Of a stretch of DNA of 64,000 nt, positions 15,921-39,789 are shown one piece after another. The DNA is taken from positions 62,001 through 126,000 of the forward strand of contig FNPA01000002.1 of the NCBI GenBank assembly GCA_900107185.1. The letters are read 5' to 3'. The stretch comes from Ruminococcaceae bacterium YAD3003 (lineage in GTDB: Bacteria; Bacillota; Clostridia; Saccharofermentanales; Saccharofermentanaceae). The position numbers and the translations under genes were made by a program. Every line of letters begins with the position of its first letter. The first letter of the stretch is position 1. Under the pieces are notes generated by a model, which was given only the letters and a program-made list of their open reading frames with translations, searched no databases and was not told where the DNA came from.

Positions 15921-16316
15921 TCAGAGCAGGCTCTTTAATGTTCTCCCGTAGAAGTAATCGTGTATTATGCCGTCGAATTCTTCCCACATCGGAAGAGTTT
16001 CGCATTTCTTCTTCCTGGGACATTCGTAAGCATTGTCTGCCAGGCAGGCGACAGAAGACATAGTTCCTTCCATGAGAGTTAAGATCTCGCCAACAGTATA
16101 TTCTTCAGGTTTTCTGATGAGCTTGTAACCGCCACCTTTACCGCTTGAACCGACAATAAGTTTGCCTTCTACCATTCTCTTTACGATTATCTCCAGGTAT
16201 TTCTTGGAGATTTCCTGGCGTTCCGCAATATCTTTGAGAGGTATGAAGTTACCATTGTCGTTCCTGGCAAGGTCGATCATTACTCTTAATCCGTATCTGC
16301 CTTTTGTTGAAATCAT
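15921..16316 (-). CDS. Rrf2-family regulator, IscR-like
   Basis: 131 residues. The winged helix (ISTKGRYGLRVMIDLARN, DIAERQEISKKYLEIIVKRM, VGSSGKGGGYKL) is typical of Rrf2. Three cysteines, C91, C99 and C105 (C-x7-C-x5-C), lie where IscR binds its 2Fe-2S cluster, unlike CymR of Bacillus, which lacks them. It is divergent from iscS-iscU. Palindromes CCTA-N9-TAGG overlap its own -10 (16341-16357) and the -35 of iscS, of the mccBA-metNI operon and of the metQ operon, so it is inferred to be an autorepressor linking Fe-S status to cysteine supply. Which ligand it senses is not shown by the sequence. Confidence 0.9.
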   Translation of the reverse strand: MISTKGRYGLRVMIDLARNDNGNFIPLKDIAERQEISKKYLEIIVKRMVEGKLIVGSSGKGGGYKLIRKPEEYTVGEILTLMEGTMSSVACLADNAYECPRKKKCETLPMWEEFDGIIHDYFYGRTLKSLL

Positions 16317-16340: not shown

Positions 16341-16382
16341 CCTATTATAACAGTAGGAAATAAACTTTTTCAATAGCAATAA
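16341..16382 (-). promoter_or_regulatory. Rrf2 gene promoter with autoregulatory operator
   Basis: On the minus strand TTGAAA, an 18-bp spacer and TATAAT form a good sigma-A promoter. The palindrome CCTA-TTATAACAG-TAGG (16341-16357) covers the -10, so a bound regulator would block its own transcription. Confidence 0.8.
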
Positions 16383-16415
16383 CCTATTGACATAGTAGGG
16401 AATAGGGATTAAGAT
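16383..16415 (+). promoter_or_regulatory. iscS-iscU promoter with CCTA-N9-TAGG operator
   Basis: -35 TTGACA (16387-16392), 17-bp spacer, -10 TAAGAT (16410-16415). Operator CCTATTGACATAGTAGG (16383-16399) encloses the -35. The same 17-mer recurs exactly at 18034 and 23646. Confidence 0.88.
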
Positions 16416-18033: not shown

Positions 18034-18066
18034 CCTATTGACATAGTAGGTAAATAGAAATATAAT
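18034..18066 (+). promoter_or_regulatory. mccBA-metNI operon promoter with Rrf2-type operator
   Basis: Near-consensus promoter: TTGACA (18038-18043), 17-bp spacer, TATAAT (18061-18066). The palindrome CCTATTGACATAGTAGG (18034-18050) covers the -35. Expected start of transcription is near 18073, 34 bp before the leader peptide. Confidence 0.9.
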
Positions 18067-18106: not shown

Positions 18107-18187
18107 ATGAAGTACATGTGTTGTTGTTGTATGAGCATCACACGGGCAATGGACAATTGCTGTCTTAATATGATTCGATGTAATTAG
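18107..18187 (+). CDS. Cysteine-rich leader peptide of the mccBA-metNI operon
   Basis: A 26-codon ORF with an AAAGGAG site and 7 cysteine codons: four in a row at codons 5-8, two at 18-19 and one at 25 (begins MKYMCCCCMSI). It lies between a sulfur-regulated promoter and an intrinsic terminator (18212-18248) and precedes mccB. This is the classic layout of a ribosome-stalling attenuator for cysteine: lack of charged tRNA-Cys should stall the ribosome at the CCCC run. A 5-nt segment CGGGC at 18143, starting 13 nt after the fourth Cys codon, can pair with GCCCG of the terminator's 5' arm. Coding status is inference from position and composition. Confidence 0.85.
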   Translation: MKYMCCCCMSITRAMDNCCLNMIRCN

Positions 18188-18211: not shown

Positions 18212-18248
18212 AAGCCCGGAGCTGAACTAAGCGCCGGGCTTTTTATTT
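18212..18248 (+). terminator. Attenuator terminator before mccB
   Basis: AAGCCCGG / CCGGGCTT (18212-18219, 18234-18241) followed by TTTTATTT. It sits inside the transcript, between the Cys-rich leader ORF and mccB, so it must be conditional for the operon to be expressed. A small hairpin ATGATTC/GAATCAT surrounds the leader stop codon. Confidence 0.88.
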
Positions 18249-22022: not shown

Positions 22023-22027
22023 TTTAG

Positions 22028-22059
22028 CAGAGCATGCTGTATGGCATGCTCTGTTTTTT
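22028..22059. terminator. Terminator between metI and the convergent nuclease-like gene
   Basis: CAGAGCATGC - TGTATG - GCATGCTCTG (22028-22037, 22044-22053) followed by a six-T run. Perfect 10-bp stem; its T-run overlaps the end of the minus-strand gene at 22058. Confidence 0.92.
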
Positions 22060-23550: not shown

Positions 23551-23645
23551 AGGATCCCCATTAAGAGATATCTCCCATTCTCAAACCCAATATTTTCAGG
23601 CGTTTTCACTCCAAAATCGAATAAACCAAAATAAATTATCAAAAA

Positions 23646-23678
23646 CCTATTGACATAGTAGGTAAGTATGATTATACT
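23646..23678 (+). promoter_or_regulatory. metQ operon promoter with Rrf2-type operator
   Basis: TTGACA (23650-23655), 17-bp spacer, TATACT (23673-23678), with the palindrome CCTATTGACATAGTAGG (23646-23662) over the -35, identical to those before iscS and mccB. Confidence 0.9.
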
Positions 23679-23708
23679 TGCACCATCAACGCGAAAGGAG
23701 GCGTGAAA

Positions 23709-23831
23709 ATGTATAGCTCAATCACAATCACAGCAATCAGCATGATGTGTTGTCGAATGCTTAGCTCCCGGGCAAACAAGATGGCCACGGCGATGAGCAA
23801 CGATGTCTCACGCCTTGCAAAACGATGTTGA
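23709..23831 (+). CDS. Cysteine-containing leader peptide of the metQ operon
   Basis: A 40-codon ORF after an AAAGGAGG site. Cys codons 14 and 15 are adjacent (MMCCRM) and the last codon before the stop is also Cys. CTCCCGGGCA inside the ORF (23765-23774), starting 12 nt after the second Cys codon, is perfectly complementary over 10 nt to TGCCCGGGAG of the downstream terminator's 5' arm. A ribosome stalled at Cys-Cys would leave this segment free to form an antiterminator; a ribosome that reads through would cover it and allow termination. The arrangement parallels the leader before mccB. Translation is inferred. Confidence 0.85.
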   Translation: MYSSITITAISMMCCRMLSSRANKMATAMSNDVSRLAKRC

Positions 23832-23859
23832 AGTAATTAATGCTGACAAACATGCCATG

Positions 23860-23897
23860 TGCCCGGGAGTTAAATCTGAATCCCGGGCATTTTCTTT
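23860..23897 (+). terminator. Attenuator terminator before metQ
   Basis: TGCCCGGGA / TCCCGGGCA (23860-23868, 23881-23889) followed by TTTTCTTT. Its 5' arm can instead pair with 23765-23774 in the leader ORF. Confidence 0.9.
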
Positions 23898-23943
23898 GCC
23901 CAAAAAAACATTAATCAAAACAATTCTAAAGGAGAACCGTATT

Positions 23944-24831
23944 ATGAAAACCAACATTATTAAGAAAGCAATCGCTTCAGTACTTACATTTACTTTATTA
24001 GGCTCATTTGCAGCCTGCAACACAAACTCAACAGCTTCAGATTCAGCTACAGTCAGCTCAGCAGCTCAGAACGCTGATATAAGTGAATCTGAAACACAGG
24101 AAAATGTAGTCCTCAGAGTAGGCGCTAACGTAACACCTCACTCAGAGATTTTGGAAGTTGCAAAGCCGATCCTCGCAGAGCAGGGAATTACACTTGAGAT
24201 CGTAGTTCTTGAAGATTCCATCACACCTAACACTGGCGTTATCGAGGGCAGCCTTGATGCAAACTATTTCCAGCATGTTCCTTATCTTGAACAGTTCAAT
24301 AAAGAGAATGGCTCTTCTCTCGTATCAGTTGGCGCTGTTCACTATGAACCGTTCGGCATCTATGCAGGTAAGACAACTGATTTGAAGAACCTTCCTGATG
24401 GTGCAATCGTAGCAGTTCCTAACAACGTAACTAATGAAGCAAGAGCATTGCTCCTCTTAGACCAGGAAGGAATCATTAAGCTCAAGGATGATGCCGGCAT
24501 CAACGCAACAGTAGAAGATATCGTTGAAAATCCCAAGAATATCCAGTTCAAAGAACTCGCACCTGAGCAGCTCGTTGCAGCACTCCCTGACGTAGATATC
24601 GCAGTTATTAACGGTAACTATGCAATTGAAGGTGGTCTCCACGTTAGCCAGGCACTCGCAGTAGAGGCAAATGACGGTCTCGCAGCACAGACATACGGAA
24701 ACATCATCGCTACATCAGCTGATAAGGCAAATGATCCCGCAATTGCAAAGCTCGTTGAAGTTCTCCAAGGTCCTGAAGTAAGTGCTTACATCAAGGCAAC
24801 ATACGACGGTGCTGTTGTTCCTCTTTTCTGA
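23944..24831 (+). CDS. metQ: MetQ/NlpA-family substrate-binding lipoprotein
   Basis: 295 residues. The signal peptide ends in a lipobox with lipidated Cys25 (GSFAAC), then a Ser/Thr-rich linker. The NlpA fold follows: LRVGANVTPHSEILEVAKPIL, DANYFQHVPYL, EPFGIYAGKT, IAVPNNVTNEARALLLL and AVINGNYAIEGGL. It captures methionine or a related sulfur amino acid for MetNI. The ATG at 23944 has AAAGGAGA upstream; the same frame is open upstream through the attenuator, but that extension is not protein-like. Separated from metNI by a minus-strand gene and array A, and independently controlled by an identical operator and its own Cys leader. Confidence 0.93.
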   Translation: MKTNIIKKAIASVLTFTLLGSFAACNTNSTASDSATVSSAAQNADISESETQENVVLRVGANVTPHSEILEVAKPILAEQGITLEIVVLEDSITPNTGVIEGSLDANYFQHVPYLEQFNKENGSSLVSVGAVHYEPFGIYAGKTTDLKNLPDGAIVAVPNNVTNEARALLLLDQEGIIKLKDDAGINATVEDIVENPKNIQFKELAPEQLVAALPDVDIAVINGNYAIEGGLHVSQALAVEANDGLAAQTYGNIIATSADKANDPAIAKLVEVLQGPEVSAYIKATYDGAVVPLF

Positions 24832-39380: not shown

Positions 39381-39411
39381 AACGACTGGATTATTCCAGT
39401 CGTTTCTTTTT
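39381..39411. terminator. Bidirectional terminator of the CPBP operon and ssrA
   Basis: AACGACTGGA - TTAT - TCCAGTCGTT (39381-39390, 39395-39404). TCTTTTT follows on the plus strand; AATAAAA precedes, giving TTTTATT on the minus strand after the tmRNA. Confidence 0.92.
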
Positions 39412-39789
39412 GGTGGAGATGAGGAGAATCGAACTCCTGTCCGAAACCTCGTCCTCCGGGACAATCTCCGGGTGCAGTCAGTATTTGAATTATTCCAATT
39501 CCCGCGTCATCTGCTGACAGATTGCGGTTCCTGTAGCTTCATAAAGATTTAAGTCGCTATCCGGCGCAAAGCTTAACCGGTAGGACTGCCTGCTTAACCT
39601 CTCTCAGGCGAGGTCTTCGGTGTACATACACTCCCGCGAGAAGATAGGCGGGAGGACGGTAGCCTTAGGCTGCTACGAGCTCTGTGTTGTCTGCAATTAC
39701 TTGCAATTCCTCGTTTATTAAAGAGGCCAACGAGGATCCTCTACCCGCTTTCCCGACCTCAGAAGCCCCGTCGAAACCAGTGCATCCCC
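39411..39789 (-). ncRNA. ssrA: Transfer-messenger RNA
   Basis: On the minus strand the 5' end GGGGATG pairs with the 3' CATCTCC of the acceptor stem, which ends in an encoded ACCA. The 3' part carries a T-arm with GGTTCGAAT-like sequence (GAGTTCGATTCTC), and the 5' part has GGTTTCGACGGGG, both diagnostic. The tag frame reads ADNTELVAA then TAA (39694-39665), giving, with the charged Ala, the proteolysis tag AADNTELVAA. The molecule of about 379 nt is normal for single-piece tmRNA. It rescues stalled ribosomes together with SmpB, which is not encoded here. Confidence 0.97.

Follow-up and report, generated by a model that had tools for sequence, protein, structure and literature searches.

The classical trp, his and thr leaders combine regulatory codons, a segment that competes for the 5' arm of the terminator, a U-tract and cognate genes. 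Mycobacterial polycysteine ORFs have reportedly been studied experimentally. Leader-peptide attenuators of the trp and his type are treated in PMC10953045, and Gram-positive examples comprise the His leader peptides of bacilli (PMC2965389) and the Leu/Ile leader of ilv-leu in Staphylococcus aureus (PMC5794164). For cysteine, the uORFC-8-2 motif found upstream of cysS in Rhodobacterales consists of a uORF with two adjacent Cys codons and a terminator, with predicted attenuation by Cys-tRNA (PMC8632094), and Cys-codon leaders precede cys operons and cbs in Actinobacteria (PMC1262725). In Clostridium perfringens, charged tRNA-Cys controls cysK/cysP by premature termination at Cys-specific T-boxes, and the same paper ascribes Cys control in the Firmicutes to T-boxes and to CymR-type and LysR-type regulators (PMC2940859). 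No Cys leader-peptide attenuator of Clostridia was found in the accessible parts of the openly published main texts.

The leader described here precedes a metQ gene in the window, i.e. the whole stretch of 64,000 nucleotides that was analysed, and its features are listed below together with those of related loci. The initial annotation had recognized a 40-codon leader with adjacent Cys codons and an exact 10-nt antiterminator before metQ, which proved right to the base. CTCCCGGGCA and TGCCCGGGAG are complementary at 10 of 10 positions, pairing extends to 14 contiguous nucleotides (TTAGCTCCCGGGCA with TGCCCGGGAGTTAA) when G-U pairs are allowed, and when the 60 nt following the Cys codons were dinucleotide-shuffled, 0 of 5000 versions matched the terminator arm equally well. 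An 11-nt gap separates the Cys codons from region 2, and region 2 is nearly identical to the 3' arm of the terminator, TCCCGGGCA, so that both compete for region 3. As in an attenuator, a Shine-Dalgarno sequence and a short ORF with adjacent cognate codons are associated with an intrinsic terminator before the gene and an exclusive antiterminator pairing just past the stall codons. Upstream of metQ lie genes for an Rrf2-type regulator, a cysteine desulfurase, a NifU-type scaffold, a CGS/CGL-type enzyme, a cysteine-synthase-family protein, MetN and MetI; several enzyme scores in this neighbourhood are below the curated equivalog cut-offs, and the enzyme names are type labels. metQ has a promoter of its own, separate from the metN/metI cluster. 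A strong terminator (22026-22055) is located 3 nt past the metI stop codon. Leader anatomy, exact complementarity, conservation, compensatory change and gene context make it highly probable that the metQ leader is a ribosome-mediated transcription attenuator reading charged tRNA-Cys, with a promoter in a palindrome probably bound by an Rrf2-type regulator; translation, stalling, termination, readthrough, the direction of the response and binding are predicted.

Table. Features of the metQ leader and of related loci in the window.
Feature	Position	Strand	Basis or remark
CCTATTGACATAGTAGG palindrome	23646-23662	+	read from sequence; overlaps -35 box
Sigma-70-type promoter TTGACA-17-TATACT	23650-23678	+	11/12 consensus match
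Shine-Dalgarno AAAGGAGG of metQ leader ORF	23694-23701	+	read directly
metQ leader ORF MYSSITITAISMMCCRMLSSRANKMATAMSNDVSRLAKRC, stop included	23709-23831	+	40 codons; ATG 23709-23711, stop TGA 23829-23831
Regulatory Cys codons TGT TGT	23748-23753	+	TGT in 94/99 and 99/99 relatives
CGA ATG, directly 3' of Cys codons	23754-23759	+	CGA in 99, ATG in 98 of 99 CCR[M/K] leaders
Region 2, antiterminator 5' strand CTCCCGGGCA	23765-23774	+	direct reading, pairing search, alignment, shuffles
P2 5' strand ATGGC	23781-23785	+	partner GCCAT 23854-23858; 93.5% of cells paired in A1
P3 5' strand GGCG	23789-23792	+	partner CGCC 23811-23814; 79.4% of cells paired in A1
Terminal Arg-Cys codons CGATGT before stop	23823-23828	+	78/78 leaders ending Arg-Cys; TGATGT in L041, L173
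Region 3 TGCCCGGGAG, terminator 5' arm and antiterminator 3' strand	23860-23869	+	direct reading, pairing, alignment
Intrinsic terminator hairpin, then TTTTCTTT	23859-23890	+	hairpin search
Region 4, terminator 3' arm TCCCGGGCA	23881-23889	+	read directly
metQ (MetQ/NlpA family lipoprotein)	23944-24831	+	NCBIfam TIGR00363, 163.9 bits, under curated cut-off 228.85
Rrf2-superfamily regulator gene, divergent	15921-16316	minus	NCBIfam rrf2_super
CCTATTATAACAGTAGG, operator-like palindrome 5' of the divergent gene for the Rrf2-family regulator	16341-16357	.	sequence reading
CCTATTGACATAGTAGG promoter palindrome of cysteine desulfurase gene, without Cys leader	16383-16399	+	pattern scan
CCTATTGACATAGTAGG promoter palindrome of CGS/CGL-type, cysK-type, metN, metI cluster	18034-18050	+	pattern scan
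Cys leader ORF MKYMCCCCMSITRAMDNCCLNMIRCN, stop included	18107-18187	+	sequence reading
Antiterminator 5' segment CGGGC	18143-18147	+	partner 18214-18218; weak alone; pairing search, shuffles
Terminator hairpin before CGS/CGL-type gene	18212-18241	+	hairpin search

Relatives were collected with sequence patterns at several taxonomic levels. Among the matches listed, CCTAYTGACNNAGTAGG was found in at least 76 of 115 genomes of the taxonomic family, its reversed control also matching in a number of family genomes, mostly once. CCTATTGACNNAGTAGG matched at least 119 stretches of named genomes, with carriers, among the matches listed, in Saccharofermentans, Lachnospiraceae, Ruminococcus, Mogibacterium, Treponema and Anaerovibrio lipolyticus DSM 3074, the latter belonging to the class Negativicutes. 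In this cultured strain (L058), TGT CGA ATG, CTCCCGGGCA, TGCCAT, TTGCCCGGGAG and a terminator precede an OAHS-type gene. The pattern ATGTGYTGYCGAATG was present in 70 of 188 genomes of the order (6 for the reversed-pattern control) and in 15 of 391 genomes of the class sample, 5 of them from the same genus (1 for the control). Among the ten class loci outside this genus, L262, L263 and L265, which come from other families of the class, are clear leaders of the same build lacking the palindrome, and region 2 is absent from L259-L261, L264 and L270-L272. Model R1, used with strict filters on the phylum sample, was recovered in 2 of 299 genomes, one being the genome under study. The few carriers in the class and phylum samples indicate that the leader family is not general.

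For a finer survey, 30 + 89 stretches were sampled among the matches listed, one of the 89 corresponding to the third locus of the genome itself, and 253 distinct sites were built from these matches after removal of identical copies and of sites with less than 240 nt downstream. Downstream genes were labelled by their best tblastn hit to nine reference proteins at 35% identity or more, some OAHS labels (36-38% identity) being distant paralogues. The strict core TGYTGYCGAATG (Cys-Cys-CGA-ATG) occurred within 260 nt downstream of 101 of the 253 palindromes: 43/43 for MetQ, 31/38 for CGS-type, 15/42 for OAHS-type, 1/16 for CysK, 1/6 for MetN and 10/57 for other genes, with none at the 49 desulfurase (IscS) sites or the 2 Rrf2 sites. 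A looser finder, which accepted any short Cys-rich ORF preceded by an obligatory Shine-Dalgarno-like string, flagged 129 sites, 79 with the core and 50 merely Cys-rich, including all 38 CGS-type sites, 29 of the 42 OAHS-type sites and a single, doubtful one of the 49 desulfurase sites. Nine sites with the strict motif (seven of them MetQ) escaped it, since their cores contain few Cys and have the sequence S-R-V. The other downstream genes that were opened encode LysR regulators, GCS2-type glutamate-cysteine ligases, an ECF transporter S component, an ABC permease, an NlpA lipoprotein and an M20 peptidase; the named genes are mostly devoted to sulfur amino acids and none is a metal gene. At one site (L212, contig C98 of G070), the Cys core is present twice, 127 nt apart with a run of N between, which reflects either an assembly artefact or a tandem leader. 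The family is apparently undescribed and appears to recur upstream of numerous sulfur genes in bacteria of the gut and rumen.

The pairing between regions 2 and 3 was surveyed in 120 of the 129 loosely flagged leaders, the nine missed sites lying outside this set. A permissive finder detected a terminator-like hairpin in 117 of them, and the best complement of its 5' arm, sought within 60 nt past the Cys codons, begins at +6 to +19 after these codons in 110 of the 117, with a mode at +11. In 67 clusters more than 20% apart, own region 2/3 pairs scored modestly higher than swapped pairs (mean 23.5 versus 19.5), a total reached by none of 2000 permutations, and 53 clusters were at p≤0.05 against 100 shuffles each; single leaders are less clear, the own pair being the best of all in 6 of 67 clusters.

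Compensatory change was then followed in alignments of 34 metQ leaders (A1), of 16 of 21 long CGS leaders, the five divergent ones being excluded by hand (A2), of nine LysR and OAHS leaders (A3), and of 15 of the 17 short CGS leaders, to which the 18107 leader belongs, with two excluded by hand (A4); one was excluded from A5. In A1, 93.7% of cells are paired and 21 cells changed on both sides, neither value being reached in 500 shuffles. P1 (regions 2:3) is paired in 98.9% of cells, P2 (ATGGC:GCCAT) in 93.5% and P3 (GGCG:CGCC) in 79.4%, compared with 24-51% when the partner is slid (best slid version, 50.7%); further pair types in A1 were not beyond shuffles (97/500). In A2, 91.2% of cells are paired and 8 changed on both sides (0/500 shuffles for each). 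Pairing reaches 90-94% in its helices, namely P1, P3, an extension of P3, and P4, which surrounds the stop codon (GAUG:CAUC), with two-sided changes located in P1 and the P3 extension and none in P4. Since region 3 is mis-aligned in A3, only the stop-codon helix was counted there: it is 98.4% paired and three sequences show a two-sided change in one pair, a weak signal (28/500 shuffles). In A4, RNAalifold retains a six-pair P1 with a covariation term of about zero. Taken together, the compensatory changes support the pairing of region 2 with region 3, and the alignments indicate that the antiterminator of the relatives is branched and encloses the leader stop codon. Folding of the leader ORF without region 3 gave differing structures between groups, and no conserved anti-antiterminator was adopted. 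Attenuation at the Cys codons, as first put forward, is thus the reading with the strongest support: about 100 relatives keep the segment, where it lies and how it pairs, with compensatory changes, and the downstream genes are mostly sulfur-amino-acid genes; the simple picture of region 2 against region 3 that accompanied it is incomplete, as the structure is branched and includes the stop codon.

A covariance model trained on 32 metQ leaders, taken up to region 3, was searched against 95 sources totalling 785 kb. At E≤0.0011 there were 59 matches, every one starting at the Cys-codon motif or at some variant of this motif. Two of them duplicate a training sequence, four are metQ leaders outside the training set, and the remaining 53 are almost all leaders of non-metQ genes. 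Of the 69 leader-bearing sources, 53 contained matches. Among the leaders left unrecognized at this threshold, in the other 16 sources, are the one at 18107 (L001, E 0.23), the genome's third leader (L007), those of glutamate-cysteine ligase and ECF genes and several loosely Cys-rich ones. The model matched nothing in 400 kb of background from the same genome (20 stretches) and none of six leaderless controls before desulfurase or CysK-type genes (L004, L014, L024, L026, L029, L033), and weak antisense matches to the same hairpins start at E 0.059. The family could enter RNA-family libraries, a model built on metQ already recognizing the leaders of other genes.

Conservation was also observed at the level of codons. 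In 99 CCR[M/K] leaders, the Arg codon is always CGA and the second Cys codon always TGT, CGA being rare elsewhere (3 of the 210 Arg codons counted across 11 genes of the window). Likewise, CGATGT is found in 78 of 78 leaders ending Arg-Cys, optionally followed by one or two residues, a count that covers the leaders with this end and no others. Neither motif is universal, some leaders having another residue after the Cys codons and some other ends. In the metQ leaders L041 and L173, the terminal CGA TGT is replaced by TGA TGT, with an earlier stop and loss of the final Cys codon, which, judged by these two, seems dispensable. OAHS and LysR leaders differ by one nucleotide before region 2 that shifts the frame (NGLTGVSCRCLK versus NRIDRCVIPMFI); the RNA is kept while the peptide changes, so the part 3' of the core seems to be selected as RNA. 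Candidate reasons for the conserved CGA are a slow codon or an RNA contact. A UGUCG:CGAUG helix as its sole reason was discarded, CGA persisting in leaders without the terminal CGATGT (L101, L132, L136, L126); where both strands of this helix are invariant, covariation is uninformative about it. We tentatively propose, as a possibility that is rather unlikely to hold in full, that one module has been copied before many sulfur genes, across Clostridia and at least one strain of Negativicutes, its coding sequence held by RNA function, with UGU-CGA-AUG and the usual CGA-UGU before the stop acting as slow codons, as a competing helix (UGUCG:CGAUG) or as both, and thereby setting the timing of the ribosome relative to RNA polymerase. 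The terminal-motif exceptions L041 and L173 make this proposal slightly less probable. If true, such wide use would imply that leader translation is effectively coupled to transcription in one branch of a phylum for which uncoupling is predicted. The codon-level conservation represents a clear and testable puzzle.

The same data bear on the possibility that the sensor is the Cys-rich nascent peptide itself, an arrest peptide responding to a metal or to the thiol state, and not tRNA-Cys charging. CruR, a uORF product which senses copper via a CXXC motif, provides a precedent (PMC9426467), and the residues C-C-R-M are strongly conserved. We nevertheless regard this explanation as improbable: conservation goes beyond residues to the codon (CGA in 99/99), the one-nucleotide shift between LysR and OAHS leaders keeps the RNA and alters the peptide past the core, the N-terminal residues are highly variable, and the named downstream genes are mostly sulfur genes with no metal gene among them.

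The promoter palindrome is probably the operator of the neighbouring Rrf2-type regulator. This protein passed the rrf2_super cut-off (109.6 versus 73.3) and was not assigned to CymR (85.2, below 195) or IscR (89.2, below 207.55) by the curated NCBIfam cut-offs. In contigs of Treponema (L046, L047, L051, L063, L069, L104), the palindromic promoter element lies before sulfur and transporter-like genes and no Cys leader was flagged, which suggests a spread of the Rrf2-type regulon across phyla. The genome under study contains four exact copies of CCTATTGACATAGTAGG. Cys-rich leaders follow at three of these sites, and the desulfurase site has none. The third leader (L007:1331-1447, minus strand, contig C17, MYDRKFYFQSLVRCNFRCGRMCCSCSNSRCSDSTTITI) is a 38-codon ORF with 6 Cys codons behind a CCTATTGACATAGTAGG palindrome and ends 23 nt upstream of an O-acetylhomoserine-sulfhydrylase-type gene (PF01053). 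A hairpin search at this locus revealed no terminator, so this leader may act on translation. One of its relatives, L207, shows an internal duplication within the Cys-rich part.

The leader at 18107 had been said to match the geometry of the metQ leader while its peptide was otherwise unlike, and the two were counted as independent copies. The leader does exist. Its antiterminator match is limited to 5 contiguous nucleotides (CGGGC:GCCCG), and 428 of 5000 shuffles were as good, which is chance level for this match taken alone. The two peptides align on C-C-x-M-x-x-[S/T]-R-A and end in R-C and R-C-N, contrary to the claimed dissimilarity; independence is not upheld either, both aligning with one homologous leader family, of which, on these alignments, they are members.

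The palindrome further raises the question of whether the hairpin is a simple constitutive or partial terminator, with an incidental Cys leader and control by an Rrf2-type repressor alone. Palindromes before desulfurase genes lack the leader motif (0/49), so the operator can act alone. However, leader, region 2 and terminator arm are conserved jointly across genes with compensatory changes, and the same build exists without a palindrome in L262, L263 and L265, which renders this second explanation quite unlikely. We give hardly any credence to a ligand- or tRNA-binding RNA of riboswitch or T-box type with a fortuitous ORF, despite a branched antiterminator with strongly conserved nucleotide motifs, since the metQ leader has no credible Rfam match (23600-23960, E up to 5) and Shine-Dalgarno, start and in-frame Cys codons are kept in spite of a variable N-terminus, the finder having required a Shine-Dalgarno-like string. 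An Rfam 15 scan of the window returned at gathering score only a tmRNA (39411-39789). A T-box or other known Rfam element was likewise rejected for the metQ leader, with no T-box match in the window at gathering score and nothing credible in the leader interval.

For ribosome-mediated attenuation by charged tRNA-Cys, the following course can be proposed. Transcription would begin at the promoter whose -35 box lies inside the palindrome, probably bound by the Rrf2-type regulator. A ribosome translating the leader would stall on TGT TGT when Cys-tRNA is short, leaving region 2 just past its leading edge and free to pair with region 3 in a structure that encloses P2 and P3; formation of the terminator would thereby be prevented and metQ transcribed. 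With ample Cys-tRNA, the ribosome would cover region 2 and proceed to the stop codon inside the branched antiterminator, region 3 would be left to pair with region 4, and transcription would end. A ribosome at the stop codon would block P3 and P4, a plausible cause of termination after a finished leader.

For the metQ leader of the window, folding with and without the leader segment covered, as suggested with the initial annotation, was computed in a footprint model. P(terminator), which stems here from equilibrium folding with assumed ribosome footprints and not from kinetics, was 0.0004 with the A-site on the first Cys codon and region 2 free, 0.92 with the ribosome over region 2 and 0.91 at the stop on the full transcript. 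It was 0.03 without ribosome, and with the ribosome at the stop the antiterminator is favoured (0.95) until region 4 exists. The picture is less clear-cut for the other leaders. Over 36 metQ leaders, mean P(terminator) was 0.12 at the first Cys codon and 0.32 at the stop, the antiterminator being favoured on average without ribosome (0.81). For 36 leaders of CGS genes the terminator prevails whatever the state (means 0.81-0.95; 0.83 at the stop), so that kinetics must decide there.

Ribosome-mediated attenuation needs a ribosome close behind the polymerase, and the attenuator therefore bears on transcription-translation coupling in rumen and gut Clostridia. Uncoupling is predicted for the Firmicutes (PMC10953045), and timing by the ribosome would then be weaker. 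Of 14 terminators in the window, 1 lies 12 nt or less from a stop codon (the metI pair, 22026-22055), compared with 11 of 46 in 400 kb of the same genome (median 25 nt), where the threshold differs slightly from that of the window; the E. coli comparison comprised 5 terminators, without an uncoupled control.

The mechanism is already known, and what is apparently new is the Cys leader family. Like the trp, his and thr attenuators, the metQ-type leaders have regulatory codons, a competing segment just past them, a U-tract and cognate genes. They differ in that their reading frame ends well beyond region 2, at a stop codon enclosed by a branched antiterminator, in that a separate 1:2 hairpin upstream is not established for them, and in the CGA codon that directly follows the Cys codons. 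His leaders of bacilli and the ilv-leu leader of S. aureus share ribosome-mediated attenuation in Gram-positive bacteria and, as far as described, concern other amino acids and hisS-type genes or one operon, versus a homologous leader before many genes of a regulon (PMC2965389, PMC5794164). The Cys T-boxes of C. perfringens also use charged tRNA-Cys and premature termination in a clostridium, but there the tRNA binds the RNA directly, without translation (PMC2940859). A T-box search of the genome under study gave five matches, one over the cut-off, before trpE-, PheS-, AMP-binding-, Glycos_transf_3- (TrpD-like) and AspS-type genes, and none of the five precedes a Cys gene. A ribosome-read Cys attenuator common to many genes of the regulon would add a layer to Cys control in rumen and gut Clostridia. 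The actinobacterial leaders share runs of Cys codons before sulfur genes, but no conserved terminator hairpins were found for them and Rho-dependent termination is proposed (PMC1262725). The uORFC-8-2 motif shares adjacent Cys codons in a uORF, a terminator and predicted Cys-tRNA attenuation; by its published description it is set apart by its occurrence in Alphaproteobacteria, its restriction to cysS, the dominance of UGC and a first stem that holds the Cys codons (PMC8632094).
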